Origin: Parvibaculaceae bacterium PLY_AMNH_Bact1
GTDB taxonomy: Bacteria; Pseudomonadota; Alphaproteobacteria; Parvibaculales; Parvibaculaceae
Direction of reading: 5' to 3'
Length of the DNA: 64,000 nt
NCBI GenBank assembly: GCA_032881465.1
Contig: CP126168.1
Coordinates: 1,860,001-1,924,000 of the forward strand
Part shown: in pieces, positions 2,913 to 37,576 of the stretch
Layout: each line of letters begins with the position of its first letter
Position numbering within the stretch: position 1 is the stretch's first letter
The notes under the pieces: model-generated
Seen by the model: only the letters and a program-made list of their open reading frames with translations
Told to the model about the DNA's origin: nothing
Database searches by the model: none
Made by a program: the position numbers and the translations under genes

Positions 2913-2921
2913 TGCAATCTC

Positions 2922-3995: not shown

Positions 3996-4161
3996 TCTCA
4001 TCTCCTGTCGCGTGATGTCGCGGTAACACCCGTATGGCGGGCGGACCCAGCCACGTTCAACGCCCGTGGCAGGCTGATACGCTCGATACCGTCGAACGCA
4101 CGGGAAGTCCGTCACGCCCCTGAGTGAGGCGCGTCGGTGTCTTCAAAAATCTGTCGGTTGG

Positions 4162-4677
4162 TCAGTGGATGGCGCTTGGCGCCTTCTCTCCACGTGCCTT
4201 TTGAAAGGTCTGTCCCTCTGTTGGGTCCAGAACATCCTTCATGAAATGTCTTTGCTGCATGAGCGCCGTGTAACAAAGGCCGCCCCAGGTTTCCATGCCG
4301 GCAAGGAGGACATCTGCAAAGTCCAGCATCTCGCCGTCATTTTCTTCCCATTCAACGGTGAACTGTGGATCCCCATCCTGATCCAGGAAGATGATGCCGA
4401 AGCGTCCGTGTTCGCATTCAACCTCCGGCACGGTAGGCGGCTTGGGATGCGTATGAACAATCACCCACGCCCCGTCATAGGCCAATTCCCGGTGCAGAAA
4501 GCTCAGTAGGTCCTGTGAAAACAGCATTCGAGCCGCTGTAATCGCTGGCCCGATGGTGTGCTCCAGAAAACTGCCATCATTCTTTTGCATCACCGCTGAG
4601 TAGGCCCCGTCTGCCTCTAAATCGAACCGTTCCAACAGGGTTTTCGTGATCAGCGTTTTGTCGTCCAGCTTGTGCAT
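4162..4677 (-). CDS. Hypothetical protein between portal and scaffold (171 aa)
   Basis: Starts MHKLDDKTLITK; its ATG overlaps the portal stop region at 4677. The middle contains IVHTHPKPP, which resembles the HxHP core of JAMM metalloproteases, and some phages carry a protease between portal and scaffold. The downstream Ser and Asp of the full JAMM motif are not obvious, so the protease idea is weak. No other domain recognised. Confidence 0.65.
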   Translation of the reverse strand: MHKLDDKTLITKTLLERFDLEADGAYSAVMQKNDGSFLEHTIGPAITAARMLFSQDLLSFLHRELAYDGAWVIVHTHPKPPTVPEVECEHGRFGIIFLDQDGDPQFTVEWEENDGEMLDFADVLLAGMETWGGLCYTALMQQRHFMKDVLDPTEGQTFQKARGEKAPSAIH

Positions 4678-6566
4678 CAGACCGGTGCTCCTGGGTCTAC
4701 CGGGGGTTGCTCCAGAGGCGCCTGGTTCAATTGCTTGAGACGCTCAATCCACTCAGCTTTGCGCGGCAACGATGACGCATCCACGATCAAGTCAGCAAAC
4801 ATTGGAATGAACTGACCAATTCCTGGCGCGATTTTCTCCATGATGATCATCATCTCGTCGAACTGAGCGTTCGCGAAGGACGCGGCAAGTGGCACTTCAT
4901 CAACGGTTACGGTGTACTTCCCGACCGTCACATCATTCAAAATACGTGTCGTTCCAGTGACGCCGTCGACCTGCTGTTGATTGATCAGGATCTCAGCAAA
5001 CTTGCCATCCTCACCCAGCGCCCGGGCCATCCGAGCCTCTGTGTAATGGTTCTGAATAAGCTCCAGGTGTTTCTTGCCCTGCAGCCTTTTGGACCGGCTG
5101 AAATTGTCGAAATACATCTGGATAGCAACCAGAGCCTGGCGCTGTTTGGCCTCAAGCGCCCGGCCACTCTGAACCGTCTCCACGGTCCCCATGGCAGATT
5201 CACTCAAGCCAGATATCTTGTGAACGTCCTCATCAGCCCGGCTTTCCAGCCTGTCATGCGCTTGAGTAGAAGTGCCAGCCTCAAGCTTTCTCGGCTCCTT
5301 TTCGCCCCGCCATTTCACGCGAACGCCAGGTGCTGACCCAAACCGTTGCAGATTGAGTTCCTGCTCATCGCTCAACGACTTTTCGTGGTAGATCCACCCA
5401 CCATTTGCGTTCTTTGACACCATGTCGATTTCAGAAGACCGCCGCTTGTTCTTCTCTTTCTGCGGGTCGATCAGGTCTGTCACCATTCCCCGTGCAACCC
5501 CCCGTCGGAAGTAAGGGAAGTACGGCGTGATGGTGTAGGACTGATACGGCGAAGGACTGTCATAGAGCGCCAGATCCCCGCAGAGTGTCGTCCATTGTAA
5601 TCGACTGACCCGACGCCGCTGCACCATCACAGGGTTCCCGCGGTGCTCGGCATAGGCCACGACCTTCTGGATGCGTTCTTGTCCCCAATTTTCTGGGAGC
5701 ACCTTCTTGTCACCGGTCTCCAGGTCGATAACGACGTTGCGGTTTTCAGTGACCTTATGCTGGATGTCCATCAGCCGAATGGTTTTTCGTTGGGTATCCA
5801 CGAAGTTCCCAATCAGGCTATGGAACCGATCCCAATAGTCTGACGCTTCCTCTCGCTCGCCGAACCCTCTGATGGGTGTGATTTCATCATTCAGATAGGC
5901 CGTGCTGACTGGTCCTATGGGCGTCTCACCCTTAAGAAACGGGCGCGTGAGGTCTGCGGCAGCCTTCCCATAATTCTGCTCAATCTCATCGATCGACACA
6001 TATTTGGTGCCGATGACGTAAGACGCTGACTCGTTCAGATCATAGGTATCAGCATCGGGATCAAGATAGGTCGCAAATGGGTCACGCGCGCGCGCACGGA
6101 CCTCTCCAAGGTCATTGTTTTCAAAGTCCAGGCGATCATCAAAGAAGCCTCGCCCCGTCACCAGGCCGTCCATGAAGACTTCAGTATCGATGAAGTCCAG
6201 TTCGGTATTCGCAGCGATGTTCTTCTCAAGCTTTGAGAGAATGTCCGCCACCATCTCATTTGCCCGGGCGTCGTCACCGGGCTGAAACGTGATGTCGGTC
6301 TTGCCGTTTCGTTGGTAGCCCAGCACCAGACGAACCAAAGGATAGATGATGTTGAACTGGAGATGCGGGCGCTTATGCCGCACCATCTCTGCAATTTCTT
6401 CTGCCGTCCACTGCCGACCTTCAAGGAAGTCGACTGCTTGCTTGGCAGGAGTAGCCCAGTTGTCATGCGCCTCTGCAGCCCGATGAAACCTCTCAATGAG
6501 CATCTGGGTCTTGACGTAGTCCTGTTCCGGCAATCCTCTAGGTGGCACTGGGCCGTACTTAGTCAT
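4677..6566 (-). CDS. Portal protein, P22-like
   Basis: 629 aa, the size of P22-type portals. The N-terminal region has the pattern ANDNW-like/GRQWTAEE...RPHLQFNII followed by GYQRNGKTDI, characteristic of P22-like portals (Pfam P22_portal family), and a DPDAD-type acidic turn near residue 170. The dodecameric portal forms the DNA entry vertex and docks the terminase. It lies directly downstream of the large terminase gene, with a 34-bp gap, as expected. Confidence 0.88.
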   Translation of the reverse strand: MTKYGPVPPRGLPEQDYVKTQMLIERFHRAAEAHDNWATPAKQAVDFLEGRQWTAEEIAEMVRHKRPHLQFNIIYPLVRLVLGYQRNGKTDITFQPGDDARANEMVADILSKLEKNIAANTELDFIDTEVFMDGLVTGRGFFDDRLDFENNDLGEVRARARDPFATYLDPDADTYDLNESASYVIGTKYVSIDEIEQNYGKAAADLTRPFLKGETPIGPVSTAYLNDEITPIRGFGEREEASDYWDRFHSLIGNFVDTQRKTIRLMDIQHKVTENRNVVIDLETGDKKVLPENWGQERIQKVVAYAEHRGNPVMVQRRRVSRLQWTTLCGDLALYDSPSPYQSYTITPYFPYFRRGVARGMVTDLIDPQKEKNKRRSSEIDMVSKNANGGWIYHEKSLSDEQELNLQRFGSAPGVRVKWRGEKEPRKLEAGTSTQAHDRLESRADEDVHKISGLSESAMGTVETVQSGRALEAKQRQALVAIQMYFDNFSRSKRLQGKKHLELIQNHYTEARMARALGEDGKFAEILINQQQVDGVTGTTRILNDVTVGKYTVTVDEVPLAASFANAQFDEMMIIMEKIAPGIGQFIPMFADLIVDASSLPRKAEWIERLKQLNQAPLEQPPVDPGAPV

Positions 6567-6600
6567 GCAGCCCTCCAGTGTGTACCCAAATCGCCCACCC

Positions 6601-8190
6601 TTACGCCGTCATCCAGGAGCTTGCCTGTCCTTGTTCCATTTCCAAGTCGCGCTGCCATTTAGGTTTGTCGTCCGCAGATTGTTTCGGAAACACCACACCA
6701 AGCTCTTCGTCCAGGATGCGCGCCAGGTCGTCCAACCCGTCATCGTGCGTAACTACGGGAAAAGTCAGGTACTCCTCCTGAACAAACTGCCTCACGACGT
6801 CGACGGTTTTGCCTTCATAGTCGGTCTTGACGATCCCGGCTTCTGGCAAATAGATGCGCCCCGCCTCGAAGACCGGCACAAGCTTCCTGATCCGATCTTC
6901 TTTCTTCAAGGCTCCCCCGAGGGGCGTGATAGTGAACCGGTAATTCATCCTCTCCATCTCTAGTTCCATGTGCTCGATATCTGCTTGAGCTCCATACTGC
7001 TCATACCCAACGGCCAATGGTTCCCAGCGATCATGAAGGGCAAATAGCGTTCTAGTGCGTTGTGCGAGGTTGAGCCGGTCTCTCACTCCATCTAGGAGGT
7101 AATAATTCTTGTCGGCGGCTACACCGATCACCCACATAACCGTGTAGTCGCTGGTCTTCTTCTTCGACGAAGCCGGGTCGACCACGATGTACTTGTTCAA
7201 TCCCGAGTAATTCACTGCCGGCCAATATTTCAGCCACTCCTCTTTGAAGCCCTGAGCATTGTCGTTCGTAGGGTTCAACAGCATTTGGCATCCAAAAATG
7301 TAGGGCCCTTGAAGGCGACGTTTTTTCGCAAGCTCGTCCGGTGAGCGGAGCACCGCCTTCGAGAAATCCTCCGACCCGTCTGATGTGCAGGGGTGCTCTC
7401 TGACGGGTATGCCGCGGTCCTTCATCACCCGGTAGGTGTCAAACATCGCGTAATAGGTGCCGATGATCCGAAACACGCCACCCTCTGTTCCCAGATTGTC
7501 TGAGAGCTCCCAGGCTGCCGTGGTTTTCTTGATCATCTCAGGCGAGGTCACCGACTTATCGGTCACAACGTCATCATAAATCCGATGCGTGTAGTGCTTG
7601 GACGTCGGCATGCCGTCGACCAAACCGTTTGCTTCAACCGTCGCCTCTTTCGGGTTCCCCTTGCGCTTGAAGACAAGCCCTTCGCTCACTGACCAGATCG
7701 GCGCATGCGTTTTGGGGTAGTCCCAAAGGATTTCCGGAAATAGTTCCTTCAACTCCTCATTGTTCTCGCACTCATATTGGATCTGCCTCAGAAACTGGCG
7801 GGCCAACTTCTGATTGAGCGAGAAGATCCCTACCGTGACCTCCCGCCCATTGTACCGCGGCTCTGGATCATCCCCATGGCTCGCGAGGATGTCCTGCAGC
7901 GTCAGACCAAACGTGATGATCGTTGACTTGTAGTGTTCCCGCGCCCAGGCATCCAGAAAGCCGTTTGGGGCATGCTCTACCTCCCTACAGCGGTCAAATA
8001 GCCAAGGGTGGTTCAGGTCCTTTCTCTTACAAACAACCGTGAGAAGAAAAAAGAGATCGTTTCTCGCCAGCCAACGTTTCGCCTTCTTAAGCTTCTCTGG
8101 TGACGTCTTCGCCGCAGCCGTCAGAAACTCACGGTAGAACTCAATTGATCCTTCTCGGTCTCTTGGTATCAACTCTCTTGATAGCTTCAC
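6601..8190 (-). CDS. terL: Terminase large subunit (packaging ATPase-nuclease)
   Basis: 529 aa. A variant Walker A (REHYKST, about residue 85), a Walker B-like HRIYDDV segment and the RNase H-like nuclease acidic residues (VVDPASSKKKTSDY near 335 and HDDGLDDLAR near 490) are visible in the right order. The start is GTG at 8190 with GGAGAG eight bases upstream, overlapping the small terminase gene by 50 bp. It cuts concatemeric DNA and drives it through the portal. Confidence 0.9.
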   Translation of the reverse strand: MKLSRELIPRDREGSIEFYREFLTAAAKTSPEKLKKAKRWLARNDLFFLLTVVCKRKDLNHPWLFDRCREVEHAPNGFLDAWAREHYKSTIITFGLTLQDILASHGDDPEPRYNGREVTVGIFSLNQKLARQFLRQIQYECENNEELKELFPEILWDYPKTHAPIWSVSEGLVFKRKGNPKEATVEANGLVDGMPTSKHYTHRIYDDVVTDKSVTSPEMIKKTTAAWELSDNLGTEGGVFRIIGTYYAMFDTYRVMKDRGIPVREHPCTSDGSEDFSKAVLRSPDELAKKRRLQGPYIFGCQMLLNPTNDNAQGFKEEWLKYWPAVNYSGLNKYIVVDPASSKKKTSDYTVMWVIGVAADKNYYLLDGVRDRLNLAQRTRTLFALHDRWEPLAVGYEQYGAQADIEHMELEMERMNYRFTITPLGGALKKEDRIRKLVPVFEAGRIYLPEAGIVKTDYEGKTVDVVRQFVQEEYLTFPVVTHDDGLDDLARILDEELGVVFPKQSADDKPKWQRDLEMEQGQASSWMTA

Positions 8191-18514: not shown

Positions 18515-18721
18515 TCAAACCCCCGTCATGGGCGATCCGCCCGGCATTTTGTTGAAGTGATGATCGTCAAGGAACAGGTCCAAAAACGCCTTCCAGGCCA
18601 TCCCAGCGGCAATGCCGTCCTGAATGTGGTCCGACCGCTCAGCAATACCGCGTGCTTCAACATACGCCACCCATCGACGGGTCATTTCGTCCGTTACGGG
18701 TTGGATGTTTGACAGGCTCAT
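18515..18721 (-). CDS. Small phage protein (68 aa)
   Basis: Starts MSLSNIQPVTDEMTRRW at an ATG overlapping the GcrA stop (ATGA). Mostly helical with an acidic C-terminal part (FLDLFLDDHHF). No family recognised. Confidence 0.6.
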   Translation of the reverse strand: MSLSNIQPVTDEMTRRWVAYVEARGIAERSDHIQDGIAAGMAWKAFLDLFLDDHHFNKMPGGSPMTGV

Positions 18722-19305
18722 ACCGCGTTCGCCCCCCAGATTTTTTCTTGCTGGGGCGTCCACCTATCTCGTCCGGCTTTTCTCTTGGGTCGCACATACG
18801 GCGCGCTGACCTGATGCTCCTTGCAGTAAGGCCCGTCTTCTTTGGCGATTGGCGCCATGCAGAAATGGAAGTCCTCGTCCCCAACATCACCGGATGGGAA
18901 CCGGCAATGATGATCGTCGCAGGCAAGGACCGCATCAGGAATGCCGCGAGGCTGTGGAGATGAGTGAACCACCACCAATTCAACTGGCGGTGTCTCAGGA
19001 GCCTCTATCGGCTTCTCAGAATGTTCGTCTTTTTTGGGTGCCGCCTTGGTTTTCTGCTCGCCCGCGAGCGTCACTGGCTTCTTTGGGACCCCACGTCGCT
19101 CTTGTTTGATCTTCTTGTCTGGGGCCTTACGACCCTTAAGACCCATCCGATGCGCCTGACCTATGCAGGCATTCCTTGTCTTTCCAGGTATCTGTCGGGC
19201 GATCAGAGCGAAGCTCAGCCCCTCGCCATAGAGCCTCTTCAGCTTAGCCATTTGCTCTTCCGACCAGCCAGCCGCGCGGTAGGGACGTTGTTTTGCTCTG
19301 GTCAT
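18718..19305 (-). CDS. GcrA family cell-cycle regulator, phage-encoded
   Basis: 195 aa. The N terminus (GWSEEQMAKLKRLYGEGLSFALIARQIP...TRNACIGQAHRMGL) is the GcrA helix-turn-helix, and the C terminus (HCRFP ... HFCMAPI ... PYCKEH) keeps the Cys/His cluster of the family. In Caulobacter, GcrA binds RNA polymerase sigma-70 and activates promoters carrying CcrM-methylated GANTC. A phage copy could redirect that network or drive phage promoters. Starts ATGA-coupled to the RuvC gene. Confidence 0.87.
   Translation of the reverse strand: MTRAKQRPYRAAGWSEEQMAKLKRLYGEGLSFALIARQIPGKTRNACIGQAHRMGLKGRKAPDKKIKQERRGVPKKPVTLAGEQKTKAAPKKDEHSEKPIEAPETPPVELVVVHSSPQPRGIPDAVLACDDHHCRFPSGDVGDEDFHFCMAPIAKEDGPYCKEHQVSAPYVRPKRKAGRDRWTPQQEKIWGANAV
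19056..19069. repeat. Dispersed palindrome GCTCGC-CC-GCGAGC (copy 5)
   Basis: Inside the gcrA-like gene in the linker; encodes LAGE. Confidence 0.75.
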
Positions 19306-19853
19306 CCTGCCTCCTGGAATAGATCGGTCACGAGTGTTGGATGGAGAAAGCCTGTCGCTTTCCAGATCACGAAGGATCGGAGCGCCAAGGCATCGCCTTC
19401 ATTGTCATTCTCGGGGTTCCACCCCATGCGCCGGCATTGCTCCATGATTGTCCCCTTCAACCATTTGGTGCGGTCTTTCTTGGGGATGGAGCGTGGCGCT
19501 TGGGTGCGATGAATAAAGTGCGTTCGAATGTCCGTGAGGTCTGCTTCCGCGACCCGCACTTGCGCTTTTAGGCCCGTCGTCTCAGCGTATGCAGTCAAGC
19601 CATAAAGCTTGCGCAAGATCTTCTTCTGGGTGTTGGTGCGGTAGAGAATAGGAGCTTCAAAGACCAACAATTCCGGTTTCAGCGATTGAATGAGGTCACG
19701 CAGTCGGTCTTCAAACTCGGCAAAAAACGAACCCAGATCGTCACCTGTATTCTCCAGCGTTATAGTGCCGTACTCACACTCAGACAGGTTGTCGACGGGG
19801 CCGAATGCCCACCCCGTCGCTGTCGCTGTATCAAGTGTGAGCAAGGTCGACAT
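19302..19853 (-). CDS. RuvC-like Holliday-junction resolvase
   Basis: 183 aa with the RNase H-fold acidic residues in order: LTLDTATATGWA (first Asp), LVFEAP (Glu, about residue 66) and NEGDALALR (last Asp, about 155). Phage RuvC-like enzymes resolve branched DNA before packaging. The ATG overlaps the preceding TGA (TGATG), so it is coupled to the RMF-tailed gene. Confidence 0.85.
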   Translation of the reverse strand: MSTLLTLDTATATGWAFGPVDNLSECEYGTITLENTGDDLGSFFAEFEDRLRDLIQSLKPELLVFEAPILYRTNTQKKILRKLYGLTAYAETTGLKAQVRVAEADLTDIRTHFIHRTQAPRSIPKKDRTKWLKGTIMEQCRRMGWNPENDNEGDALALRSFVIWKATGFLHPTLVTDLFQEAG

Positions 19854-20846: not shown

Positions 20847-21064
20847 GGCGTCCGCCTCCGTTCCTGTTTTTCCCGCGCGGCGGGACAATCTCGAACACAT
20901 TCGGATAGGTCCTTCTCCATAATCATTGGCGGGAAAACTGACCTATGACGGAAGAAGCGATGAGACACATTGGAGAAGTGGTAAAAGACATCGTTCAAAG
21001 GGTGGGCGGCGACAGAGACAATGTCGTCGCCTTCCCTTCCTTCAAAGAACGTGCTCTCAGGCAT
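20843..21064 (-). CDS. Possible small coupled protein (73 aa)
   Basis: ATG 21062-21064 overlaps the upstream stop by 8 bp and the TGA overlaps the next ATG, which favours translation. A shorter product from the internal ATG (MEKDLSECVRDCPAARE) looks more protein-like. A plus-strand frame at 20945-21166 (MTEEAMRHIGEVV) competes for the same DNA, so the call is uncertain. Confidence 0.35.
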   Translation of the reverse strand: MPESTFFEGREGDDIVSVAAHPLNDVFYHFSNVSHRFFRHRSVFPPMIMEKDLSECVRDCPAAREKQERRRTP

Positions 21065-22091
21065 CGGCAGGCTCCTGTTGAGGGAACCGGCGCAATTGTT
21101 CTGGCATATCCTCTATCTCGTCGAAGTCGTCGAGACCAGGTGCAGGTGGCGGAGAAGGCCGAGTGACCTCCCCCGCCGATGCGTTTGCACTTTCGGTGCC
21201 GCTAACGCCAGCGCCGACCATCCGGTCGGAGGCAGCTGGGATCGACGAAGGTTGCCCCTCTACTCCAGCCTCAGCTGAACCATCTTCATGGCCAACCACA
21301 GGTGAGGTCCTTTCGGATACCTCCTCACATGGCCCATTTGCCAAGGACATCTCAGCGGATTGCACTCGGTCAATCACCGCCTGAGCCAAATCTTTCTGTT
21401 CATGGGAGAGCACGACTTGCAGCCGCTTCAAAGACCACTTGAAGAATGCGATCTGTTCAGCACCCGTCATCTTGTCCCAGCGCTTGTGCATATCAGCAAC
21501 GCGGTCAAACGGCTCTTCTTCGCCCTCTGGCTCAACCTCTTGCGCCTGCCCTTCTACCTGTTCAGGGAGCCGCTTCTCAGGCCTCTCAGCCGAAACCGCC
21601 TCGCCAACAGCCGTGCCATCCATGACAGGCTTGTCTTCATCAGATTCTCTCTCATCTGGCAGGTCCGGTGTCTTTCTCTGGTTATTAATAACCGGGCTCT
21701 TGCGGGTGAGCCGCGCAAGGTCAGTGGTGTTGATTTCACCGCGGGCGGCTTGGTCAAGCAGTTCGTCTTGGCGCGCCGGATCAAGGAACGCGACCTTCTG
21801 GTAGTAGGTGAAAGACAAGTCCCACCGGCGCCTGTCATGAGGGAACTTCTTTGCAACCTGCATGTATTTGCGCAGTGTCTCGTTCTGTCGACGCGTGAAC
21901 TTGAGCGCTTGCTCCCACTGGTCAGGGAAATGTTCCTCGCCATAGGCCAGCACGTCCCCAAGCACCCAAGGTATTTTGCCCCAGACAGTTTGCATCCCAA
22001 GAGCAGTGCGAGACCAATCTTCATAAGACAGGCCATCGGGCAGGATCATGCCCATCTCATCGTCTTGGGGAGAGGGTACGAGGTCGGTCAT
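21057..22091 (-). CDS. Large phage protein, putative DNA-binding N terminus (344 aa)
   Basis: First gene of the leftward early operon. Residues about 20-125 (LSYEDWSRTALGMQTVWGKI...VLGDVLAYGEEHF...LSFTYYQKVAFLDPARQDELL) match a recurring phage domain that looks helical and ParB/KorB HTH-like. The rest is acidic and low complexity (about 130-335). It contains one copy of the AT-core palindrome at 21679. A regulator or replication factor is possible; no function assigned. Confidence 0.7.
   Translation of the reverse strand: MTDLVPSPQDDEMGMILPDGLSYEDWSRTALGMQTVWGKIPWVLGDVLAYGEEHFPDQWEQALKFTRRQNETLRKYMQVAKKFPHDRRRWDLSFTYYQKVAFLDPARQDELLDQAARGEINTTDLARLTRKSPVINNQRKTPDLPDERESDEDKPVMDGTAVGEAVSAERPEKRLPEQVEGQAQEVEPEGEEEPFDRVADMHKRWDKMTGAEQIAFFKWSLKRLQVVLSHEQKDLAQAVIDRVQSAEMSLANGPCEEVSERTSPVVGHEDGSAEAGVEGQPSSIPAASDRMVGAGVSGTESANASAGEVTRPSPPPAPGLDDFDEIEDMPEQLRRFPQQEPADA
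21679..21695. repeat. 17-bp AT-core palindrome TGGTTATTAATAACCGG (copy 2)
   Basis: Inside the 344-aa gene, about 400 bp from its start. Identical to the copies at 12041 and 32283. Confidence 0.7.
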
Positions 22092-22563: not shown

Positions 22564-22764
22564 CTACCCCTCCGCCGGTTCTGGAAAGAAATCAGCAGCG
22601 GTTACGGCTCCGCCGGTTGTGGCGATGATCTTGTTCATCGCGTCTCGGCGCGGGACACGCTCCCCAGACAACCATTTGCGGACACCGGAGACCGAGGAGC
22701 CCACCGCATCAGCGAATTCGGCGTGATCGATCTTGTTTTCTTCTAGGTACGATTTGAGCTTCAT
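22564..22764 (-). CDS. XRE-type Cro-like regulator (66 aa)
   Basis: A compact helix-turn-helix: HAEFADAVGSSVSGVRKWLSGERVPRRDAMNKI. Size is that of Cro proteins. Its promoter (22771-22799, minus) has an operator in the spacer, and the -10 box ends only six bases before the ATG, so the transcript would be leaderless. It is divergent from the larger XRE gene; which of the two maintains lysogeny cannot be told from sequence. Confidence 0.8.
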   Translation of the reverse strand: MKLKSYLEENKIDHAEFADAVGSSVSGVRKWLSGERVPRRDAMNKIIATTGGAVTAADFFPEPAEG

Positions 22765-22770
22765 GAGCCG

Positions 22771-22799
22771 AACTTACCCATTTCGGGTAACTTCAGCAA
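22771..22799 (-). promoter_or_regulatory. Promoter of the Cro-like gene with internal operator
   Basis: On minus: TTGCTG, a 17-base spacer containing TTACCC, then TAAGTT. The operator TTACCC-N5-GGGTAA (22774-22790) fills the spacer and overlaps the -10. The expected start point is at or next to the ATG. Confidence 0.65.
22774..22790. promoter_or_regulatory. Operator O1 TTACCC-N5-GGGTAA
   Basis: Perfect 6-5-6 palindrome; spacer ATTTC on plus. Confidence 0.75.
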
Positions 22800-22807
22800 G
22801 AAATATC

Positions 22808-22824
22808 TTACCCATTTTGGGGTA
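22808..22824. promoter_or_regulatory. Operator O2, imperfect right half
   Basis: TTACCCATTTTGGGGTA: the left half and spacer match the other sites, the right half carries an extra G. A TATGTA at 22823-22828 could be the -10 of a weak rightward promoter for the XRE repressor. Confidence 0.65.
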
Positions 22825-22859
22825 TGTAGTTTCCGTGCCCAATGTGGAGACTCGCGCCC

Positions 22860-23291
22860 ATGGGTAACAACATCGAAATGTGGCGGAAACAAAAGGGCCT
22901 CACGCGCAAAGCGCTGGCGGAGGCGGTCGGCTGTGGCGAAACGCAAATCGTGAAGCTGGAGCGCGGCGAACGGCGCCTTACAGAAACATGGATGACCAAG
23001 ATTTCCGATGCAATGGAGATCACAGTCGCCGAACTGATTGACCCAGAAGCCAATCCAGTTGCTTCAGACAAGCCACCTTCGCTTCAAGAGAAAGCGACCT
23101 TTATCACTCTTCTGTTGCTTGATAACTGGGAGAAAGAAAACGGCGTCGAGCTTGGCCCACGTGCCCGTGCCGCATCATTCGCTGAGATTTACGAAGTCGC
23201 CGTTGGTAGAGAAGATGAACCCGAAGCGGCAGCGAAAGCCCTACAACCCGTCTTCGATACAGCGTTAAGGCTGGCCGTAAAACTCGGCTAA
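22860..23291 (+). CDS. XRE-type repressor (143 aa)
   Basis: Start MGNNIEMWRKQKGLT chosen because GGAG lies ten bases upstream; ATG 22842 has none. Residues about 5-58 form a classical helix-turn-helix (LTRKALAEAVGCGETQIVKLERGERRL). The C-terminal half (EKATFITLLLLDNWEKENG...) is not a LexA/CI-type peptidase, so SOS cleavage is not expected. Its stop overlaps the stop of the last gene of the opposing quorum-sensing operon (23288-23291). Confidence 0.8.
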   Translation: MGNNIEMWRKQKGLTRKALAEAVGCGETQIVKLERGERRLTETWMTKISDAMEITVAELIDPEANPVASDKPPSLQEKATFITLLLLDNWEKENGVELGPRARAASFAEIYEVAVGREDEPEAAAKALQPVFDTALRLAVKLG

Positions 23292-23467
23292 ATGGATGTT
23301 TTTGGCTTGCTCGGCTCCGCAGCAGCTTTCTTAAAAGCTGGCGTCTGCACCAGTTCGGACTTCGCCTGCCTGACAGCATTAGCAAACTCAAAGTATTCCT
23401 GGCGTTCAGCCTCAGCGATCAGATAGTCGGCGGCCTCTAAAAGGCCTTCTGTCTTTTCGTCAATCAT
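23288..23467 (-). CDS. 59-aa protein coupled to luxI
   Basis: ATG 23465-23467 overlaps the luxI stop (ATGA). Sequence begins MIDEKTEGLLEAADYLIAEA and ends in a Lys/Pro-rich tail: an acidic helical body of about 45 residues. No family recognised. Coupling to luxI suggests a role in the same circuit, perhaps modulating LuxR or LuxI, but that is speculation. Convergent with and overlapping the repressor stop codon. Confidence 0.7.
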   Translation of the reverse strand: MIDEKTEGLLEAADYLIAEAERQEYFEFANAVRQAKSELVQTPAFKKAAAEPSKPKTSI

Positions 23468-24084
23468 GCGGCCTCCCGCACAGTCTGAGGCTCAAGAACA
23501 TCGTCAGGCAGACCAAACAACTCGCGCAAGCCCCTGAGCCCCTCCAGCGTGTTCATGCTTTCAACAGCGACATTCTTCTCGCCAGAGAGGTCAATCTCCG
23601 GCCCGATGGTGCGGAGCTCGACCGGAAGGTAGCTGCTCACAACCGCGAACAGATCCGCTGGGGTGAAGTAGATATAGCTCTCGATCCCATGAGCGAGACC
23701 GAACTCGATACCGGCGGCACAGATCTCCCCCATCACCTTTGCCTGGGCTTCTCTTGAGATGTCCTGGCGGATTGTGAAGCGAGACGCCTCCCAATGCCGA
23801 TCAGTATCTGGCAAAGGCATCTCTGTCACCGAGTCGGGGAAATGGTCCTTCATGAAATAGGGCTGGCTGCACCGCAGAAGGCGCTGACACCCCAGCACTT
23901 CGCCGTTTTCATGGGAAAGCATGTAGACAGCGCTTGGCGTGTCATATTCGTCATATTCCAGGCCATCGAAAGACGGCACGCCCCACCCCTTCTCATCCAC
24001 AAAAACCGCCTTGCGCAGCTCGTGGTGCTTCACCCAGAGATCAGGGTGGCGCGGAAGGGTCCGCCATTGGAGCAAATCAATCAT
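23464..24084 (-). CDS. luxI: LuxI-family acyl-homoserine-lactone synthase, phage-encoded
   Basis: 206 aa from ATG 24084 (MIDLLQW), where family numbering falls exactly into place; upstream in-frame GTG 24105 and ATG 24102 lack a ribosome site. Conserved residues: R24, F28, W34, E43, D45, D48 (LEYDEYD), R68, F82, E99 and R102 (HWEASRF). LuxI enzymes make acyl-homoserine lactones from S-adenosylmethionine and acyl-ACP. The gene follows luxR by 39 bp and is flanked on both sides by phage regulatory genes. An acyl carrier protein homologue lies in the same prophage at 29998. No truncation or missing key residue is seen. Confidence 0.92.
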   Translation of the reverse strand: MIDLLQWRTLPRHPDLWVKHHELRKAVFVDEKGWGVPSFDGLEYDEYDTPSAVYMLSHENGEVLGCQRLLRCSQPYFMKDHFPDSVTEMPLPDTDRHWEASRFTIRQDISREAQAKVMGEICAAGIEFGLAHGIESYIYFTPADLFAVVSSYLPVELRTIGPEIDLSGEKNVAVESMNTLEGLRGLRELFGLPDDVLEPQTVREAA

Positions 24085-24123
24085 GCCCCAAAAATGAACC
24101 ATCACTGTGACGGCTGTATATCC

Positions 24124-24843
24124 CTACTTATAGGGGGTGGATGTCGGATTTTTCACAATGATCTGGTTGATGAGCGCCTTCACAACGGCAGCTGGTCGCC
24201 CTTTGGCACCCAACTTTAGTATTGCATCTCGGATGTAGCCATCCACAGTCTGTTTCTTGATCCCAAGAATTTCTGCAATCATCTCGCTGGTTTTTCCAAC
24301 AGCAACCCATTGCAAACACTCGATTTCGCGGTCCCTGAGATCAAAGTCCTTCTGCACCGCCAAAGGTTTTAGGCGATGAAACAGCGAATTGAAGGTCAGC
24401 GCCAAACCTTCAAGGTCACGAATTTCGTTCGGTGTGGGATTGGTATCACGGCCAGAGAGCGAGACGGCGGCCAGACCATCCTCATCGCCTCGGATCGGAA
24501 TTGTAAGGCCACAGGTCAAACCTGCCGTGCTCGCCTCATCCATAATGAGTTTCCCCCGCCCCTTGCGCGGAACATCGCTCCAGAGAAACGGCTTTCTGGC
24601 GCCCAGAAACTCACGAACGATCGGATCGTCAAAGTAATAATCGTTCGCTTCATAATGAGCGCGCCAACTGTCGGGAGTTGTGGAATGACGGGTTTCAAAA
24701 AACGGCAGACCTGTTTGCCCGGATGCCGCATAGATCATGTGTGGATAGCCCCGTTTGGCGAAGGCTTCTTCAGCCTGGCGGAACAACTCTTTCAGATTGC
24801 CGATTTCGAGCGATAGGCCGCGGAATAAAAGTTCGGTCGACAT
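24124..24843 (-). CDS. luxR: LuxR-family autoinducer receptor, phage-encoded
   Basis: 239 aa. The autoinducer-binding domain has the conserved W60, Y64, D73, P74, W88 and G112 (LuxR W57, Y61, D70, P71, W85, G113), and the C-terminal HTH keeps the E-x3-L-x5-G pattern (LRDREIECLQWVAVGKT). Both halves are complete, so it should bind an acyl-homoserine lactone and DNA. AGGGAG is nine bases upstream of the ATG, within the overlapping HTH-only gene. The natural ligand is probably made by the adjacent LuxI. Confidence 0.93.
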   Translation of the reverse strand: MSTELLFRGLSLEIGNLKELFRQAEEAFAKRGYPHMIYAASGQTGLPFFETRHSTTPDSWRAHYEANDYYFDDPIVREFLGARKPFLWSDVPRKGRGKLIMDEASTAGLTCGLTIPIRGDEDGLAAVSLSGRDTNPTPNEIRDLEGLALTFNSLFHRLKPLAVQKDFDLRDREIECLQWVAVGKTSEMIAEILGIKKQTVDGYIRDAILKLGAKGRPAAVVKALINQIIVKNPTSTPYK

Positions 24844-25063
24844 TTTGTACGATCTCCCTGTTTACGACTGCTCTGGCAATCGCCGCCTCCTTGCTGTTGG
24901 CACCCAACACCTTTCGAGCGCGCGCTACGCGCCCCTGCAAGGAACGAACACTTATTCCTATTTCCTCTGCAGCCTCGAAAGCTGTCAAACCGTTTGCCAA
25001 CGCCGCTAGAGCCTGCCTCTGCCCATGGGTCAAAAATGCACCCTTCAACACGTGGTTTTCCAC
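24770..25063 (-). CDS. HTH-only LuxR-type protein (97 aa)
   Basis: GTG at 25061-25063 has GGGAGG seven bases upstream, better than the TTG at 25195. Residues about 8-70 are a GerE/LuxR-type HTH (LTHGQRQALAALANGLTAFEAAEEIGIS...LQGRVARARKVLGA) without any autoinducer-binding domain. The 3' end overlaps luxR by 74 bp. It may compete with or modulate LuxR, or be a separate regulator; no ligand domain is present. Confidence 0.75.
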   Translation of the reverse strand: MENHVLKGAFLTHGQRQALAALANGLTAFEAAEEIGISVRSLQGRVARARKVLGANSKEAAIARAVVNREIVQNVDRTFIPRPIARNRQSERVVPPG

Positions 25064-25090
25064 GTCTTCACCTCCCAGTGACCACCTTCT

Positions 25091-25122
25091 AAAGTATTGC
25101 CACCATTTCACTGTGAGGCAAC
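25091..25122 (-). promoter_or_regulatory. Candidate promoter of the HTH-luxR-luxI operon
   Basis: On minus: TTGCCT, a 17-base spacer, then AATACT, about 30 bases upstream of the GTG start at 25063. It overlaps one arm of the outer inverted repeat at 25111. Confidence 0.45.
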
Positions 25123-25160
25123 CCCCGGCGCTGTCGAACCCCGACAACTCGTCCTCACAG
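25111..25160. promoter_or_regulatory. Nested inverted repeats between divergent genes (possible LuxR site)
   Basis: An outer pair CTGTGAGG (25111-25118) / CCTCACAG (25153-25160) encloses an inner palindrome TGTCG-AACCC-CGACA (25132-25146). Both lie upstream of the quorum-sensing operon and of the small plus-strand gene. Neither matches the textbook lux box closely, so they are candidates only. Confidence 0.5.
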
Positions 25161-25186
25161 GCGAATGAAAGGGAGGCCAATTGCGT

Positions 25187-25345
25187 ATGTTCCAAGAGCT
25201 ACCCGACGACCAAGTCAAGAGACAGGCAGACCAGCTGCGTTCGCTGCAAGAATCACTGTCCAAAACAGGACCAGATCGGCCTGAAAATCAGCGGCTTTAC
25301 GACCTTTGTTCGAACCACCTGGGTAAAATTACAGAGCCAATTTAG
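25187..25345 (+). CDS. Small protein divergent from the quorum-sensing operon (52 aa)
   Basis: ATG 25187 with GGGAGG ten bases upstream, ending TAG 25343-25345. It begins MFQELPDDQVKRQADQLRSL and is charged and helical. It lies between the nested inverted repeats and the early promoter, so its expression could be under LuxR control. No family recognised. Confidence 0.55.
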   Translation: MFQELPDDQVKRQADQLRSLQESLSKTGPDRPENQRLYDLCSNHLGKITEPI

Positions 25346-25350
25346 AAATG

Positions 25351-25367
25351 TTACCCATTTTGGGTTG
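25351..25367. promoter_or_regulatory. Operator O3 TTACCC-N5-GGGTTG
   Basis: Left half and spacer identical to O4; right half GGGTTG merges with the -35 box of the early promoter. Confidence 0.7.
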
Positions 25368-25393
25368 ACTATGTTACCCATTTTGGGTAACTT
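25365..25393 (+). promoter_or_regulatory. Rightward early promoter with internal operator
   Basis: TTGACT (25365-25370), 17-base spacer, TAACTT (25388-25393). Operator O4 fills the spacer, the same arrangement as at the Cro-like promoter. A repressor bound at O3 and O4 would cover both boxes. The gene start is 27 bases downstream with GGAG seven bases before the ATG. Confidence 0.75.
25374..25390. promoter_or_regulatory. Operator O4 TTACCC-N5-GGGTAA
   Basis: Perfect 6-5-6 palindrome, 23 bp centre-to-centre from O3. Confidence 0.75.
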
Positions 25394-25419: not shown

Positions 25420-25812
25420 ATGCAAACCGCAATCGAAGACAACCTCAAAGCCGCCACCCTATGTGGTCTGCGGGCCCAAGGTTCAAGCGTCCTAGCCGCC
25501 TCTGCCACTTACCGCCCTTCTGATCTTCTGGACCTGAAAGTGCCCGGTGTGACGCCAGCGCTCGCGGGCGAGCTTCTGTCAGTCGAGGCCATTCAAGCGC
25601 GCCGCCGCCTGATCATGAAGAACATCCGGTTTCGCCGGACGAACGTTCTTGCAGCGTCTCAAACCATGCCAATCCAGTTTGTCGCCCTTCTCGGCGCTCT
25701 GCGGAGCGAGACGCTTGAGCTTCAGGTCGCGCGGAAGCTCGACGAAGTCGATGCCTCTATGAAAGCAGCAACAGAGCGCGCCCTTTCCTCCCTACAAGCA
25801 GCAGCGGAGTAG
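25420..25812 (+). CDS. First gene of the rightward early operon, unknown function (130 aa)
   Basis: Directly behind the operator-controlled early promoter, the position of N-like or antirepressor genes in lambdoid phages. Sequence is mostly helical (IEDNLKAATLCGLRAQG...), ends in a coiled coil (VARKLDEVDASMKAATERAL), and has no recognised domain. TPALAGELL is encoded over a dispersed palindrome. Confidence 0.7.
   Translation: MQTAIEDNLKAATLCGLRAQGSSVLAASATYRPSDLLDLKVPGVTPALAGELLSVEAIQARRRLIMKNIRFRRTNVLAASQTMPIQFVALLGALRSETLELQVARKLDEVDASMKAATERALSSLQAAAE
25560..25573. repeat. Dispersed palindrome GCTCGC-GG-GCGAGC (copy 6)
   Basis: Inside the first early gene; encodes LAGE. Confidence 0.75.
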
Positions 25813-27419: not shown

Positions 27420-28205
27420 ATGCAAGCCGCAACAGAAGCAACAGCCGAGATCGGTCACAATCAGCCAGAGCACTCCGAAGAGTTCCAACAGCTCCTTGAT
27501 CGCGCCAAGGCATTGAAAGAGACCGGCAACAAATGGATCAACGAGCGCCCTGAGTTCAACGACGAAACAGCGCCCAAAGCGAACAGCTTCCTTGAACAGC
27601 TGACCAAGTTCTCAAAGATAGTTGAGGCAACGCGCAAAGCGGAGAAAGAACCAATTCTCCAGCAAGGTCGCGAACTTGATGCACGCTTCAAAGCCCTAAC
27701 CGAAGCCTTGTCACCCATCGTGAAGACGATGAAAGAGCGCATGACAGTTTACCTCAAGGAGCAGGATCGCTTGCGTCGGGAGGAAGAGGAACGTGTTCGC
27801 GCTGAGGCTCAAAAGAAAGAAAACGAAGCGAAGGAAGCTGCCCGCATTGCGCGAGAAGCAGAAGAGAACGCCAACGCTGGCGAGAATGTAGGTACTGACA
27901 CTGACGTGGTGGCTCTACAGGCCGAAGCGGATGCGAAGATCGAAGAGGCACAAGCCACCGCAGCACAGGCGGAGCAGCTTGCCCAGACAAAGCCCAAGGT
28001 ACAGGGCGACATGGGCAACGCGCGCGGTCTGAAAACCTACTGGAAGGCCACCATCACTGACCCTGACAAGGCGGTCGATCACTTCAAGGGGCACCCTGAT
28101 TTGATCGCCGTCGTGCAGAAGCTTGCAGACGGTCTGGCCCGCTCGCCCGCGAGCCGACATCAGGAAATCCCCGGCATTGAAATCACCAGCGAAGAAAGGG
28201 TTTGA
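27420..28205 (+). CDS. Coiled-coil recombination-accessory protein (261 aa)
   Basis: A long charged coiled coil (about residues 60-190, rich in Glu/Ala/Lys/Arg) is followed by a C-terminal domain (GLKTYWKATITDPDKAVDHFKGHPDLIAVVQKLAD) found on proteins encoded beside phage annealing genes. It directly precedes recT, so a partner role in recombination is likely. ARSPASR is encoded over a dispersed palindrome. Confidence 0.7.
   Translation: MQAATEATAEIGHNQPEHSEEFQQLLDRAKALKETGNKWINERPEFNDETAPKANSFLEQLTKFSKIVEATRKAEKEPILQQGRELDARFKALTEALSPIVKTMKERMTVYLKEQDRLRREEEERVRAEAQKKENEAKEAARIAREAEENANAGENVGTDTDVVALQAEADAKIEEAQATAAQAEQLAQTKPKVQGDMGNARGLKTYWKATITDPDKAVDHFKGHPDLIAVVQKLADGLARSPASRHQEIPGIEITSEERV
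28141..28154. repeat. Dispersed palindrome GCTCGC-CC-GCGAGC (copy 8)
   Basis: Near the 3' end of the coiled-coil gene; encodes RSPAS. Confidence 0.75.
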
Positions 28206-28207
28206 AG

Positions 28208-29311
28208 ATGGCCACTGTTGAACAAATCGAAGACCGGATCGACAAGAAAAAAAGCCAAGAGATCGCGCTTACCGGTCTCGAAGGCGGCGGCTCTCTCGTT
28301 GCAAAAGATATGAGCCAAGCCATGGAGGTCGCAAAAATGATGTCGATCTCCGGCCCAATGGTGGGCAAGCCATTTAGGGGAAACCCGGGGGCGTGCTTGG
28401 GGATCGCCATGCAGGCCTGGCGCTGGGAGATGGACCCATATGCAGTATCTCAGAAGGCATATGAGGCCAGCGGCACAATCGCCTATGAGGCCCAGCTGGT
28501 CGCGTCGGTGATTAACACACGCGCGCCCATCAAAGGACGTCTCAAGTACGAGTACACTGGCACCGGTTCTGACCTCCAATGTACTGTCACAGGCTGTTTC
28601 ACAGACGATCCCGACACACCGCACTCTGTCACTTCTCCGAAACTCACGGACATCAAGCCTCAGAACTCACCGCTTTGGAAGAACGACCCTGAGCAGCAGA
28701 TAAGCTATTACACCGTGCGCAATTGGGCACGGCGCTACTGCCCGGAAGTGATCCTCGGTGTTTACGACATCGACGAGGTTCAAGACTTCCGAGGGCCAGA
28801 CAACGCGAGAGACATCACACCCAAGGGGGATGCACCAGCCGCACCGAAGATGGAAGACTTCACCAGCGAAGACGTTGTCGAAGTAGATCCACAAGAAACG
28901 CTCGACAAGCTTGAAGCTGCGGAAAGCGTTGAGGAACTGACCGATATCTGGACCCCGATCTATGAAGACGGCACCCTCAACCTCTGGCGCAAGTCAGACC
29001 TCGGTCTGCATAAGAAAATCTGCCAGACCTACAACACCCGCAAGTCAGAGTTTGAGGTAGCTGCCGCAGAGCAGCCCAACGCAGAAGAGTATTTTGAGAC
29101 CGCGCGGGAAGCCATCGACGGTTTTGAAACACTCGACGACCTCAATGAGTGGTGGGACGAAGAGACCGAACCTCGCGCCCTTGCTGGCATCTCGTCTGAA
29201 AGCTCGCAGCATATGGCCCTGGAGGCCTTGTGCATGCGGAAGGCCAAAGACCTGAAGACGGCTGAACCGGAAGCTGAAGAGGAAGCAGCCGAAGGAGAGA
29301 GCACCGAGTAA
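28208..29311 (+). CDS. recT: RecT-family single-strand annealing protein
   Basis: 367 aa from ATG 28208 (TTG 28202 is less likely). Residues about 55-140 (GNPGACLGIAMQAWRWEMDPYAVSQKAY...APIKGRLKYEYTG...CTVTG) are the RecT core. RecT pairs complementary strands during phage recombination and replication. An acidic C-terminal extension (about 215-367) is longer than in Rac RecT. No RecE-type exonuclease is adjacent, although a DnaQ-like exonuclease is encoded at 34930. Confidence 0.88.
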   Translation: MATVEQIEDRIDKKKSQEIALTGLEGGGSLVAKDMSQAMEVAKMMSISGPMVGKPFRGNPGACLGIAMQAWRWEMDPYAVSQKAYEASGTIAYEAQLVASVINTRAPIKGRLKYEYTGTGSDLQCTVTGCFTDDPDTPHSVTSPKLTDIKPQNSPLWKNDPEQQISYYTVRNWARRYCPEVILGVYDIDEVQDFRGPDNARDITPKGDAPAAPKMEDFTSEDVVEVDPQETLDKLEAAESVEELTDIWTPIYEDGTLNLWRKSDLGLHKKICQTYNTRKSEFEVAAAEQPNAEEYFETAREAIDGFETLDDLNEWWDEETEPRALAGISSESSQHMALEALCMRKAKDLKTAEPEAEEEAAEGESTE

Positions 29312-31251: not shown

Positions 31252-31888
31252 AGAACGATCAGGCTGGTACGGCACAGCACCTGAAGACCTCGGGCTGATC
31301 GATCTGTCTCCAACGGAGATGATGTATTGGCTCTATTGCCCCATCAAGCTACCGCGCGGTGACCTGACAGTACCGGCCAACCTCCGACAGTTCAGACCAG
31401 TCGTCGCTCGGGTCCGACAGAACCTCAGTCAATGGGCGTGGGACGAGAGCTATGTCTATCTCACAGCTAAGACACTCTGGGTCTCGCAGACAGAGCCCGG
31501 CAATAGGCCTGGGTGGCATTCAGACGGCTTCATGACCGACGACGTGAATTATGTCTGGTCAGACTCCGAGGGGACACTTTTTTGGGAGCCAGAAGAGCTC
31601 TGCATGTTTTCGCAGGATCACGTCGCTTCACTGCCAGAGATGGAACGGGAAGCCGAAGGCGGGCCACACAAGACCTATCCCGACAAGCACTTGCTGAAGC
31701 TGGACGAGCGCGTCATTCACCGCGTCCCTGACTTCGCGGAACCAAGAATTCGATCGTTCGTGAAGGTCTCGGTCTCACGGCACCGCTATCCACTGATCGG
31801 CAACTCAATCAATCACGAGCTCAACTGCGACTGGGACCAAGTCGAACGAGCCGAAGATCGCAACTGCCCCACAGGAGGAACACAATGA
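31244..31888 (+). CDS. Probable 2OG-Fe(II) oxygenase-like phage protein (214 aa)
   Basis: PGWHSDGF (H and D of an HxD pair, about residue 89), a distal His in DERVIHRVPDF (about 163) and an Arg in EPRIRSF (about 173) are spaced like the double-stranded beta-helix dioxygenases, where HxD...H binds iron and Arg binds 2-oxoglutarate. Substrate unknown; a nucleic acid or protein is possible. Call made from motif spacing only. Confidence 0.55.
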   Translation: MIEERSGWYGTAPEDLGLIDLSPTEMMYWLYCPIKLPRGDLTVPANLRQFRPVVARVRQNLSQWAWDESYVYLTAKTLWVSQTEPGNRPGWHSDGFMTDDVNYVWSDSEGTLFWEPEELCMFSQDHVASLPEMEREAEGGPHKTYPDKHLLKLDERVIHRVPDFAEPRIRSFVKVSVSRHRYPLIGNSINHELNCDWDQVERAEDRNCPTGGTQ

Positions 31889-32256
31889 GCCACGGACTTG
31901 AAGCATACCGCACCCGCGTATCAGAGAGTAAGCGCAAATCAATACTGTCAGCCGCCAGATCAGTGTTCTTACTGAATGGCTTCCAGGATGCCGCCATGGC
32001 AGGGATAGCCAGGAAGGCTGACGTGTCCACGGCGACCCTTTACAAGCACTTCAAGAGCAAGGAGAGGCTTTTTGATGCGGTTGCGAACGCAGAGGAGACA
32101 AGAGGCGGTCAGGTAGCTGTCAACGCCTTTATAGGCCGGATGGCGGTCTTTAGCATCAAGAGCATCGCCTACAACTCGAAGGCGACCCACAAAGCAGTGG
32201 GCGTTCTGGACGGCTTTGTTTCGTCGATGGAAAAAGCATCCAAGGACGCAGCCTAA
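31885..32256 (+). CDS. TetR-type HTH protein lacking a full ligand domain (123 aa)
   Basis: AGGAGG precedes the ATGA-coupled start. Residues about 15-65 (RKSILSAARSVFLLNGFQDAAMAGIARKADVSTATLYKHFKSKERLF) are a canonical TetR DNA-binding domain. Usual TetR proteins are near 200 aa; here only about 55 residues follow, too short for a normal ligand/dimer domain. The frame ends cleanly in an operon, so this looks like a true short regulator rather than a broken gene. Confidence 0.8.
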   Translation: MSHGLEAYRTRVSESKRKSILSAARSVFLLNGFQDAAMAGIARKADVSTATLYKHFKSKERLFDAVANAEETRGGQVAVNAFIGRMAVFSIKSIAYNSKATHKAVGVLDGFVSSMEKASKDAA

Positions 32257-36078: not shown

Positions 36079-36525
36079 ATGGCAGAGCGCACGCATGGCC
36101 CATATGAGCCCCGTCACTCCATCAAGGACGTGATGGAGATGCTGCCAACCGACGCCAACGGTAACAAACCCAGCGAGCGAACAATCCGCGCCAAAATCCG
36201 GTCAGAGGGTTGCTTTGCTCTGATTGGTCGCGCCATGGTGCTGACCGACAATGATCTAAGTGTACTTTGGGAGTCCTTTCGACCATGCCCCTCAAGCTCT
36301 ACCGCCCAGGCACAAGGAAGGGAAATCGCTTCTACATTGTCCGAGGAACCCTCTCCGTCTGGAAGGACGGGCAAAGGATCACCCGGGAAATTGAGCGAAG
36401 CACGAAGACTACTCGAAGAGCGGAAGCTCAAGCGATCCTCGACCAGATCGAAGGCAAGCGCGAAGAGATCACCAAGCAAAACGGGACCGAAAAGACATTC
36501 GGAGAAGTCGCCGCAGAATATCTAG
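36079..36525 (+). CDS. Excisionase-like HTH protein (148 aa), overlapping integrase
   Basis: The first ~70 residues (HSIKDVMEMLP...KPSERTIRAKIRSEGCFALIGRAMVLTDNDLSVLWESF) are a MerR/AlpA-like winged helix, as in phage excisionases. The remaining ~80 residues are Ser/Lys/Arg-rich and lie entirely over the integrase 5' end in another frame (about 240 bp overlap). The tail may be a by-product of the overlap. Position just before the integrase fits Xis. Confidence 0.7.
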   Translation: MAERTHGPYEPRHSIKDVMEMLPTDANGNKPSERTIRAKIRSEGCFALIGRAMVLTDNDLSVLWESFRPCPSSSTAQAQGREIASTLSEEPSPSGRTGKGSPGKLSEARRLLEERKLKRSSTRSKASAKRSPSKTGPKRHSEKSPQNI

Positions 36526-37349
36526 CGCAAGGCGGTAGTGACCGGTTCCTCGAACGCCCACTGGATTTCTTTGAAGACCTACCCCTCTCAGCGGTGACAG
36601 ACGCTCTGATCATGAAATGCGCGGTTGAAGCCTATCCGGATGCCGCAGCAACAACGCAGTGGCGCCAGTTTGTGACGCCTTCTCGTGCCGTGGTGAACTT
36701 CCCGCACCGAAAAGCCAAAGCACCTGAGCAGAATGTGCGGACGGTATGGGTCGCTCCAGCCGATGTCGATCGCATCATCAACGCCACAAGACAGAGTCCG
36801 AAGCACCATCCATGGGCACCGGCACTGACCACGTTTCTGTTCGGTCAGGGAAGCAGGGTCAACGAGACGCTTTCAATCAATGCCAAACGCGATTTGCAGC
36901 TGCCCTACAGACGTTGTGTGCTTCGAGATACCAAGAATGGTCATGAACGCGTCCTGCACCTCCAGGAGCGCACCGTGAGGGAACTAGCGGCCCTTCCCAA
37001 TGTGAACGAAGATGCACCTCTGTTCCGCAAGGCAGACGGCCAGCCCTACTCGGAGAAGGCAAACACCGGTCACAGGCTCCGCTTCTTTGAGAGCGCGGTA
37101 AGGATTGCCGGATTGGATCCGCGAGAGGTCACACCGCACGTCGCTCGCCACTCTTGGGCGACCTGGTTCTATGCCTGCACGACCGATAGCCAAAGGCTCA
37201 AAGATCAGGGCGGATGGATGTCCAACCAGTGGGAGCGATATGCGAAGCTCGGGGGACCGGAACTCGCCGAAGATGTTCAGCGTCACGGGTGGGATTTCTC
37301 TGGGGAAAACACGGGGATGTTCGACGTGTCTCAGGCCAACCTATTGTAA
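36285..37349 (+). CDS. int: Tyrosine-family integrase
   Basis: 354 aa from ATG 36285 (MPLKLYRPGTRKGN). The catalytic residues are in order: R191 (FGQGSRVNET), H285-x-x-R288 (HVARHSWATWF) and the nucleophile Y319 (SNQWERYAKLG). An N-terminal AP2/arm-type DNA-binding region precedes the core. It ends 30 bp from the tRNA-Ser half-gene that marks the attachment site. Confidence 0.92.
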   Translation: MPLKLYRPGTRKGNRFYIVRGTLSVWKDGQRITREIERSTKTTRRAEAQAILDQIEGKREEITKQNGTEKTFGEVAAEYLAQGGSDRFLERPLDFFEDLPLSAVTDALIMKCAVEAYPDAAATTQWRQFVTPSRAVVNFPHRKAKAPEQNVRTVWVAPADVDRIINATRQSPKHHPWAPALTTFLFGQGSRVNETLSINAKRDLQLPYRRCVLRDTKNGHERVLHLQERTVRELAALPNVNEDAPLFRKADGQPYSEKANTGHRLRFFESAVRIAGLDPREVTPHVARHSWATWFYACTTDSQRLKDQGGWMSNQWERYAKLGGPELAEDVQRHGWDFSGENTGMFDVSQANLL

Positions 37350-37378: not shown

Positions 37379-37419
37379 CCTTAGCAGGGGAGCGCCTTCA
37401 GCCACTCGGCCACCTCTCC
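37379..37419 (-). pseudogene. 5' half of tRNA-Ser(GCU), prophage attachment site (right junction)
   Basis: On minus from 37419: acceptor strand GGAGAGG, the D arm GCCGAGTGGCTGAAGGC and the anticodon stem/loop CTCCC-CTGCTAA, then identity with a tRNA-Ser ends after GG (a complete gene needs GGGAG). No variable arm, T arm or 3' end follows. The gene is therefore split near the anticodon loop by integration, with the 5' half on the host side. The 3' half should be at the left end of the prophage, outside the window. Confidence 0.75.
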
Positions 37420-37576
37420 ACCGCCGTGTATGCCGCACAAGTCCTTACGTTTCAAGAGCATATTTCGCCGGTTTGGCTGCCAAATTCAGACACTCCAGAG
37501 CTGTCCCACCACAATGAAGTTACCCTGGCGGGGGAATCGGGCCAGACTGGCCCCACCAATAAACGGGGGAAAATCT

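Follow-up and report, generated by a model that had tools for sequence, protein, structure and literature searches.

A 56.1-kb prophage of Parvibaculaceae bacterium PLY_AMNH_Bact1, apparently intact, carries a complete LuxR-LuxI quorum-sensing operon in its immunity region, which lies within the 64,000-nucleotide stretch of contig CP126168.1 analyzed here (positions 1,860,001 to 1,924,000; hereafter the window). The operon fills the space between two pairs of operators at a repressor/Cro-type switch and runs towards the repressor gene. The reading favored here, with moderate confidence, is that lysogens make an acyl-homoserine lactone (AHL) that reports their density, and that liganded LuxR biases the switch, likeliest towards lysogeny. 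An earlier sequence-only reading of this DNA had regarded a phage that both makes and senses its own AHL as a situation apart from those reported. Its complete unit in the immunity region stands, and its claim to novelty does not: such phages were already described in a July 2026 preprint (Bunsick et al., PMC13345283), so the novelty of that interpretation is reduced. Compared with the accessible part of that preprint, the central idea is known, and the architecture and the lineage are new.

Both quorum-sensing proteins are full length and retain every residue named in the sequence-only reading, as determined by Pfam hidden Markov model (HMM) searches and a residue check. LuxI matched Autoind_synth (PF00765) at 70.2 bits (cut-off 24) and keeps R24, F28, W34, E43, D45, D48, R68, E99 and R102 in the numbering of that reading, to which R68 is an addition. 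LuxR matched Autoind_bind (PF03472) at 88.5 bits and GerE (PF00196) at 49.1 bits, both far over the cut-offs, and keeps the ligand-pocket residues W60, Y64, D73, P74, W88 and G112 together with the helix-turn-helix (HTH). The two genes are neighbors on one strand with a gap of 18-39 nt. Their placement in one operon was likewise confirmed, with two further members; the order of transcription on the minus strand is a 97-aa HTH gene, luxR, luxI and a 59-aa orfX. The open reading frame (ORF) of the 97-aa protein overlaps the luxR start by 74 bp, and matched Sigma70_r4_2 (2e-4) and GerE (0.0035) below the Pfam cut-offs and PHROG 3282 'sigma factor' at 1e-8; judged by its sequence, it is likely a real gene. 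OrfX matched an HMM built from small ORFs that follow luxI in alphaproteobacteria, and phmmer matches were obtained at about 1e-5 (loci L082/L080). At approximately 45 further alphaproteobacterial loci, an ORF of roughly 45-110 aa was observed right after luxI, often with a 4-bp overlap, and the family has an aLxYLxxEAxxxGL-like motif. No Pfam match was obtained for the small post-luxI ORF of the window or for that of the viral contig L069 described below.

The immunity region is organized around the palindrome TTACCCN5GGGTAA. One operator pair (22774/22808) lies between two divergent genes, the XRE repressor-like gene (22842-23291) and a Cro-sized XRE gene (22764-22564), and the other pair (25351/25374) precedes the rightward arm (from 25420). 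With up to 2 mismatches allowed, the pattern occurs five times in the window against 0.83 expected, the fifth site (37520) being beyond the prophage. The 3.74-Mb genome contains just two copies of the exact palindrome, both in the immunity region, and a reversed control pattern gave zero matches across the same genome. Candidate early promoters were read by eye at both pairs, leftward (TTGCTG-N17-TAAGTT) and rightward (TTGACT-N17-TAACTT, 25365-25393), each with the exact operator (A1 and B2, respectively) in its 17-bp spacer; a stringent promoter scan called neither. The operator-controlled early promoter of the sequence-only reading is matched by two such candidates, one at each pair. That reading had also placed XRE regulators on either side of the operon. 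The XRE genes are present, and their arrangement differs: one converges with the lux operon and shares two bases of its stop codon with the orfX stop, and the Cro-sized one lies beyond it. The only terminator-like hairpin at the XRE/lux junction is on the plus strand (23432-23446) and faces the XRE transcript. HTH is the sole Pfam domain of the larger XRE protein; Peptidase_S24, as in cleavable LexA/S24-type repressors of the SOS response, was not found in it.

In lambda-type immunity regions, cI and cro are served by the operators OL and OR, and the rex genes lie between cI and the left operator. The window prophage likewise has a repressor and a Cro-like gene at one operator pair, a second pair at the other early promoter, and extra genes between, so that paired operators stand at both candidate early promoters around the repressor gene. 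It differs from lambda in that luxR-luxI occupies the intervening space and reads towards the repressor gene, and in that its repressor lacks an S24 domain. By this layout, the XRE protein would bind the TTACCCN5GGGTAA operators and silence the two divergent early promoters. LuxI would make an AHL in lysogens, LuxR would bind it, and AHL concentration would stand for the number of lysogens nearby; liganded LuxR would then adjust the CI/Cro-like switch through a presumed target promoter. Where lysogens are dense, the signal would reinforce lysogeny, and low or competing signal would allow induction, a direction taken by analogy from two Phaeobacter phages (A and B, below).

The same plan was found in L069, a 47-kb IMG/VR viral contig. 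Here an XRE gene on the minus strand is followed by luxR, luxI and a small ORF converging on a cI-like gene, and then by a cro-like gene. The arm beyond the cro-like gene carries RuvC, GcrA, methyltransferase, DnaB and replication initiator (Rep) genes, and the opposite arm carries exonuclease VIII and Sak4-like genes. Operators of the form CGCATN4ATGCG lie at 7776/7809 and 11705/11733, its two early-promoter regions, and luxR-luxI lies between these pairs in the same orientation as in the window prophage. The two LuxI proteins share about 27-30% identity, and neither the operators nor the repressors of the two elements are related, so the common layout reflects a shared plan, not recent copying. 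We tentatively suggest, with less than even confidence, that phage quorum sensing has here been wired a second time, by independent evolution, in a form common to unrelated alphaproteobacterial phages (the window prophage and L069): the AHL operon does not replace the cI/cro switch but is nested in it, convergent with the repressor and bounded by the repressor's operators, so that one locus integrates repressor dose and lysogen density. If the system works, phage AHL signaling would also occur in a further alphaproteobacterial lineage and in a phage that retains its repressor/Cro switch, and unrelated phages would share a plan that arose repeatedly or spread among them.

The pair also occurs at the repressor locus of other, unrelated phages. 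In the P2-like L161, an S24 repressor (58 bits), luxR and luxI lie in a row (4486-6843). The Mu-like L072 has a Ner-like gene beside XRE-luxR-luxI, as in the published layout of Phaeobacter phage A, and the Komagataeibacter prophage L071 has an XRE gene divergent from luxR-luxI. A perfect 19-bp dyad, GTATAGGATTTTCCTATAC, was observed between the repressor and luxR of L161 (5282-5300) and is a candidate lux box. In another Komagataeibacter prophage, L070, tail genes are found close to the pair, as is an antirepressor-like gene; LuxI and LuxR are 87% and 81% identical to those of L071 in a different phage context, which suggests cassette exchange between the two. The luxR-luxI pair of Pseudomonas phage Y5 (OQ572407.1) was not used, as the record is unverified and probably contaminated with host DNA; we take its pair to be the rhl genes of P. 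aeruginosa, with LuxI as RhlI. Neither this record nor the Acinetobacter phage records matched in the phage database gave a close relative of the window LuxI, and the latter were also set aside.

The closest described system is that of Phaeobacter inhibens T5, in which chemistry and genetics showed that prophages A and B make and sense their own AHLs; LuxR drives a lysogeny promoter, a block of the circuit induces the phages, and the signal promotes lysogeny in both (PMC13345283). According to the preprint, such systems are predicted in 53 Roseobacter prophages and are not found outside the Roseobacter clade; its first screen was limited to genomes with two or more luxI genes. As in the window, luxR and luxI are adjacent on the same strand at a prophage regulatory locus, and the host has a luxR-luxI-type pair of its own, with low mutual sequence identity. 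The differences lie in the wiring. The Phaeobacter module reads xre-luxR-luxI with a counter-oriented hth gene, whereas in the window a GerE/sigma4-like HTH gene is upstream of luxR and XRE is convergent. The counter-oriented HTH gene on a shared divergent promoter has no counterpart in the window prophage, where neither divergent ORF (25181-25345 and 25420-25812) was assigned to an HTH family by Pfam or PHROG. Phages A and B have no recognizable cI/Cro-type regulators, in contrast to the XRE and Cro-like genes and two operator pairs here. The window prophage, with its tyrosine integrase and tRNA-Ser attachment (att) site, is not Mu-like, and its host belongs to the Parvibaculaceae (the family of Tepidicaulis marinus), outside the Roseobacter clade; its AHL and function are predicted from sequence. 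Aeromonas phage ARM81ld and relatives carry a LuxR-type receptor with an XRE partner, reported to listen to host signals (PMC6456758, PMC9894119). This receptor is also phage-borne and is 28% identical to the window LuxR (tblastn), and no LuxI was found in ARM81ld-type phage records, unlike the window prophage. In the arbitrium system of SPbeta-group Bacillus phages, too, the phage makes a diffusible signal and encodes the receptor for it (cited in PMC13345283); the signal is a peptide and the receptor is AimR, with no homology to the window system.

The host genome holds a second LuxR gene (912128) that adjoins a divergent LuxI-like gene (911159-911800), in a bacterial neighborhood outside the window. 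The LuxI-like protein scored 19.3 bits, below the Autoind_synth cut-off, and keeps the E43-D45-D48-R-E99-R102 pattern; the phage luxI is the sole match over that cut-off in the genome. The LuxI-like gene, which with luxR and a preceding XRE gene forms an xre-luxR-luxI-like trio (locus L166; genome 911159-913272), had no homologue in six genomes of the genus. A preliminary claim that the host lacks AHL production was dropped in view of this LuxI-like neighbor and its conserved pattern. Host and prophage may each have their own signal, as their sequences suggest and as in P. inhibens T5, and the prophage signal and divergent host LuxR-LuxI-like pair in one genome are a natural pair for cross-talk tests.

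Several points weigh against the proposal that the signal adjusts the switch. No lux box beyond chance was found; there are several dyads, chance being judged by our own estimate, and the imperfect dyad just upstream of the candidate lux-operon promoter, GTTGTCGGGGTTCGACAGC, is within chance. Because the XRE gene is convergent and outside the lux operon, positive feedback onto xre as in Phaeobacter cannot operate here in the same form. Conservation rests on one distant contig: the sequence-only reading had made conservation of the unit in related prophages a test, and the diverged L069 keeps the layout, with no close relatives spanning the immunity region found. Finally, the window LuxI is divergent, the closest proteins found being 30-40% identical and mostly in bacterial chromosomes, so its substrate and activity cannot be read off.

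The main rival to a lysogeny-promoting signal is that AHL-LuxR instead favors lysis at high lysogen or host density, and it appears unlikely. It draws on the overlapping, convergent stops of the XRE gene and orfX and on the minus strand from the end of the lux operon to operator A2, where no terminator-like hairpin was found; because the stops overlap with no terminator between, strong transcription of the lux operon would continue into the repressor gene in antisense and reduce the repressor level. Receptor-driven induction also has precedents in phage VP882 and Aeromonas ARM81ld (cited in PMC13345283; PMC6456758). However, the signal promotes lysogeny in both phage LuxI/LuxR systems tested (PMC13345283), and the stop-codon overlap is not conserved, since the two convergent genes lie 246 bp apart in L069. 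A pure lysogenic conversion role (moron), in which the phage LuxI/LuxR reprogrammes the density behavior of the host and leaves the phage switch untouched, would fit a lux unit placed where lambda-type immunity regions carry rex, and the other LuxR of the host, with its divergent LuxI-like neighbor, could respond. We consider this quite unlikely: unrelated phages (L069, L161, L072, L071) repeatedly put luxR-luxI exactly at the repressor locus, which makes such a role less probable, and the Phaeobacter pair controls the switch itself (PMC13345283).

It is very unlikely, in our judgment, that a bacterial luxR-luxI cassette was captured recently and has no conserved role, or that the unit is decaying. 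In a tree of 120 LuxI proteins, phage LuxI were scattered and did not form one group, and the window protein was weakly placed on a long branch; its nearest neighbor was chromosomal (Shimodaira-Hasegawa-like approximate likelihood ratio test, SH-aLRT, 92; both branches long), which favors capture. So does the luxR-luxI-orfX order, typical of bacterial cassettes: alphaproteobacterial chromosomes hold luxR-luxI-orfX and xre-luxR-luxI cassettes (e.g. L102, L113, L120) with the same gene order and a homologous small ORF. These have bacterial neighbors, in contrast to the window pair. The long branch, on the other hand, argues that any capture was not recent, the key residues are all intact with open frames, and L069 shares the operator-bounded position. 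The sequence-only reading would have been refuted by mobile-element ends around the unit together with its absence from related intact phages; flanking the lux unit, just operators and short chance repeats were found. In three Rhodospirillales loci (L102, L113, L121), xre was observed upstream of luxR-luxI in apparently chromosomal, non-phage surroundings, so the xre-luxR-luxI order alone is no phage signature.

Features of the prophage and its immunity region (window positions)
Feature	Position	Strand	Description	Basis
luxI, AHL synthase	ORF 23464-24105	-	likely ATG start 24084, 206 aa	Autoind_synth and catalytic residues
luxR, AHL receptor/regulator	24124-24843	-	239 aa	Autoind_bind and GerE
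Small HTH protein, first gene of operon	24770-25063	-	97 aa, GTG start after GGAGGTG	weak Sigma70_r4_2/GerE
orfX	23288-23467	-	59 aa, start overlaps luxI stop (ATGA)	HMM E 1.5e-5
Candidate lux-operon promoter	25093-25146	-	TTGCCT 25121-25116, AATACT 25098-25093	sequence; candidate only
54-aa ORF	25181-25345	+	divergent from lux operon, GGGAGG ribosome site	no Pfam family
XRE repressor-like protein, CI-like position	22842-23291 (alternative start 22860)	+		HTH_3 39.9 bits; PHROG transcriptional repressors
Small XRE protein, Cro-like, Cro-sized	22564-22764	-	opens leftward replication arm	HTH_3 28.8 bits
Operator A1	22774-22790		within spacer of candidate leftward early promoter	exact palindrome
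Operator A2	22808-22824		upstream of XRE gene	2 mismatches
Operator B1	25351-25367			2 mismatches
Operator B2	25374-25390		within spacer of candidate rightward early promoter	exact palindrome
attR	37379-37437		59-bp direct repeat of attL (genome 1841336-1841394, tRNA-Ser(GCT))	
Tyrosine integrase	36267-37349	+	adjoins attR	Phage_integrase 49.9 bits
Major head protein, portal, terminase large subunit	1803-8190	-		PHROG 334, 156, 38
GcrA-like regulator and RuvC-like resolvase	18718-19853	-	leftward arm, order as in L069	
First gene of rightward (recombination/integrase) arm	25420-25812	+		no family match
Exonuclease and RecT-like annealing protein	27420-29311	+	rightward arm	PHROG 10477, 561

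The description of the element as a prophage with integrase and virion genes was upheld by the 59-bp repeat, the integrase and the terminase, portal, major head and tail genes; head-closure, DnaB, replication initiator and methyltransferase genes are also present. A probe of the two joined prophage flanks matched uninterrupted in four genomes of the same genus (G001-G004), so the att site is empty there. A search of 39 other genomes of the family found no relative of the terminase, and IMG/VR gave no close relatives of LuxI, RecT or the 21057-22091 protein. Four relatives by terminase large subunit (L045-L048) had no match to the immunity-region genes in the stretches compared. The att core spans the 5' part of tRNA-Ser(GCT) (genome 1841286-1841394), and the region upstream of this tRNA gene is therefore phage DNA after integration. 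A TetR-like HTH protein of just 123 aa is encoded in the early arm (31885-32256), and its HTH is 47% identical to that of TetR genes located beside luxR-luxI in Tepidicaulis and UBA4490.

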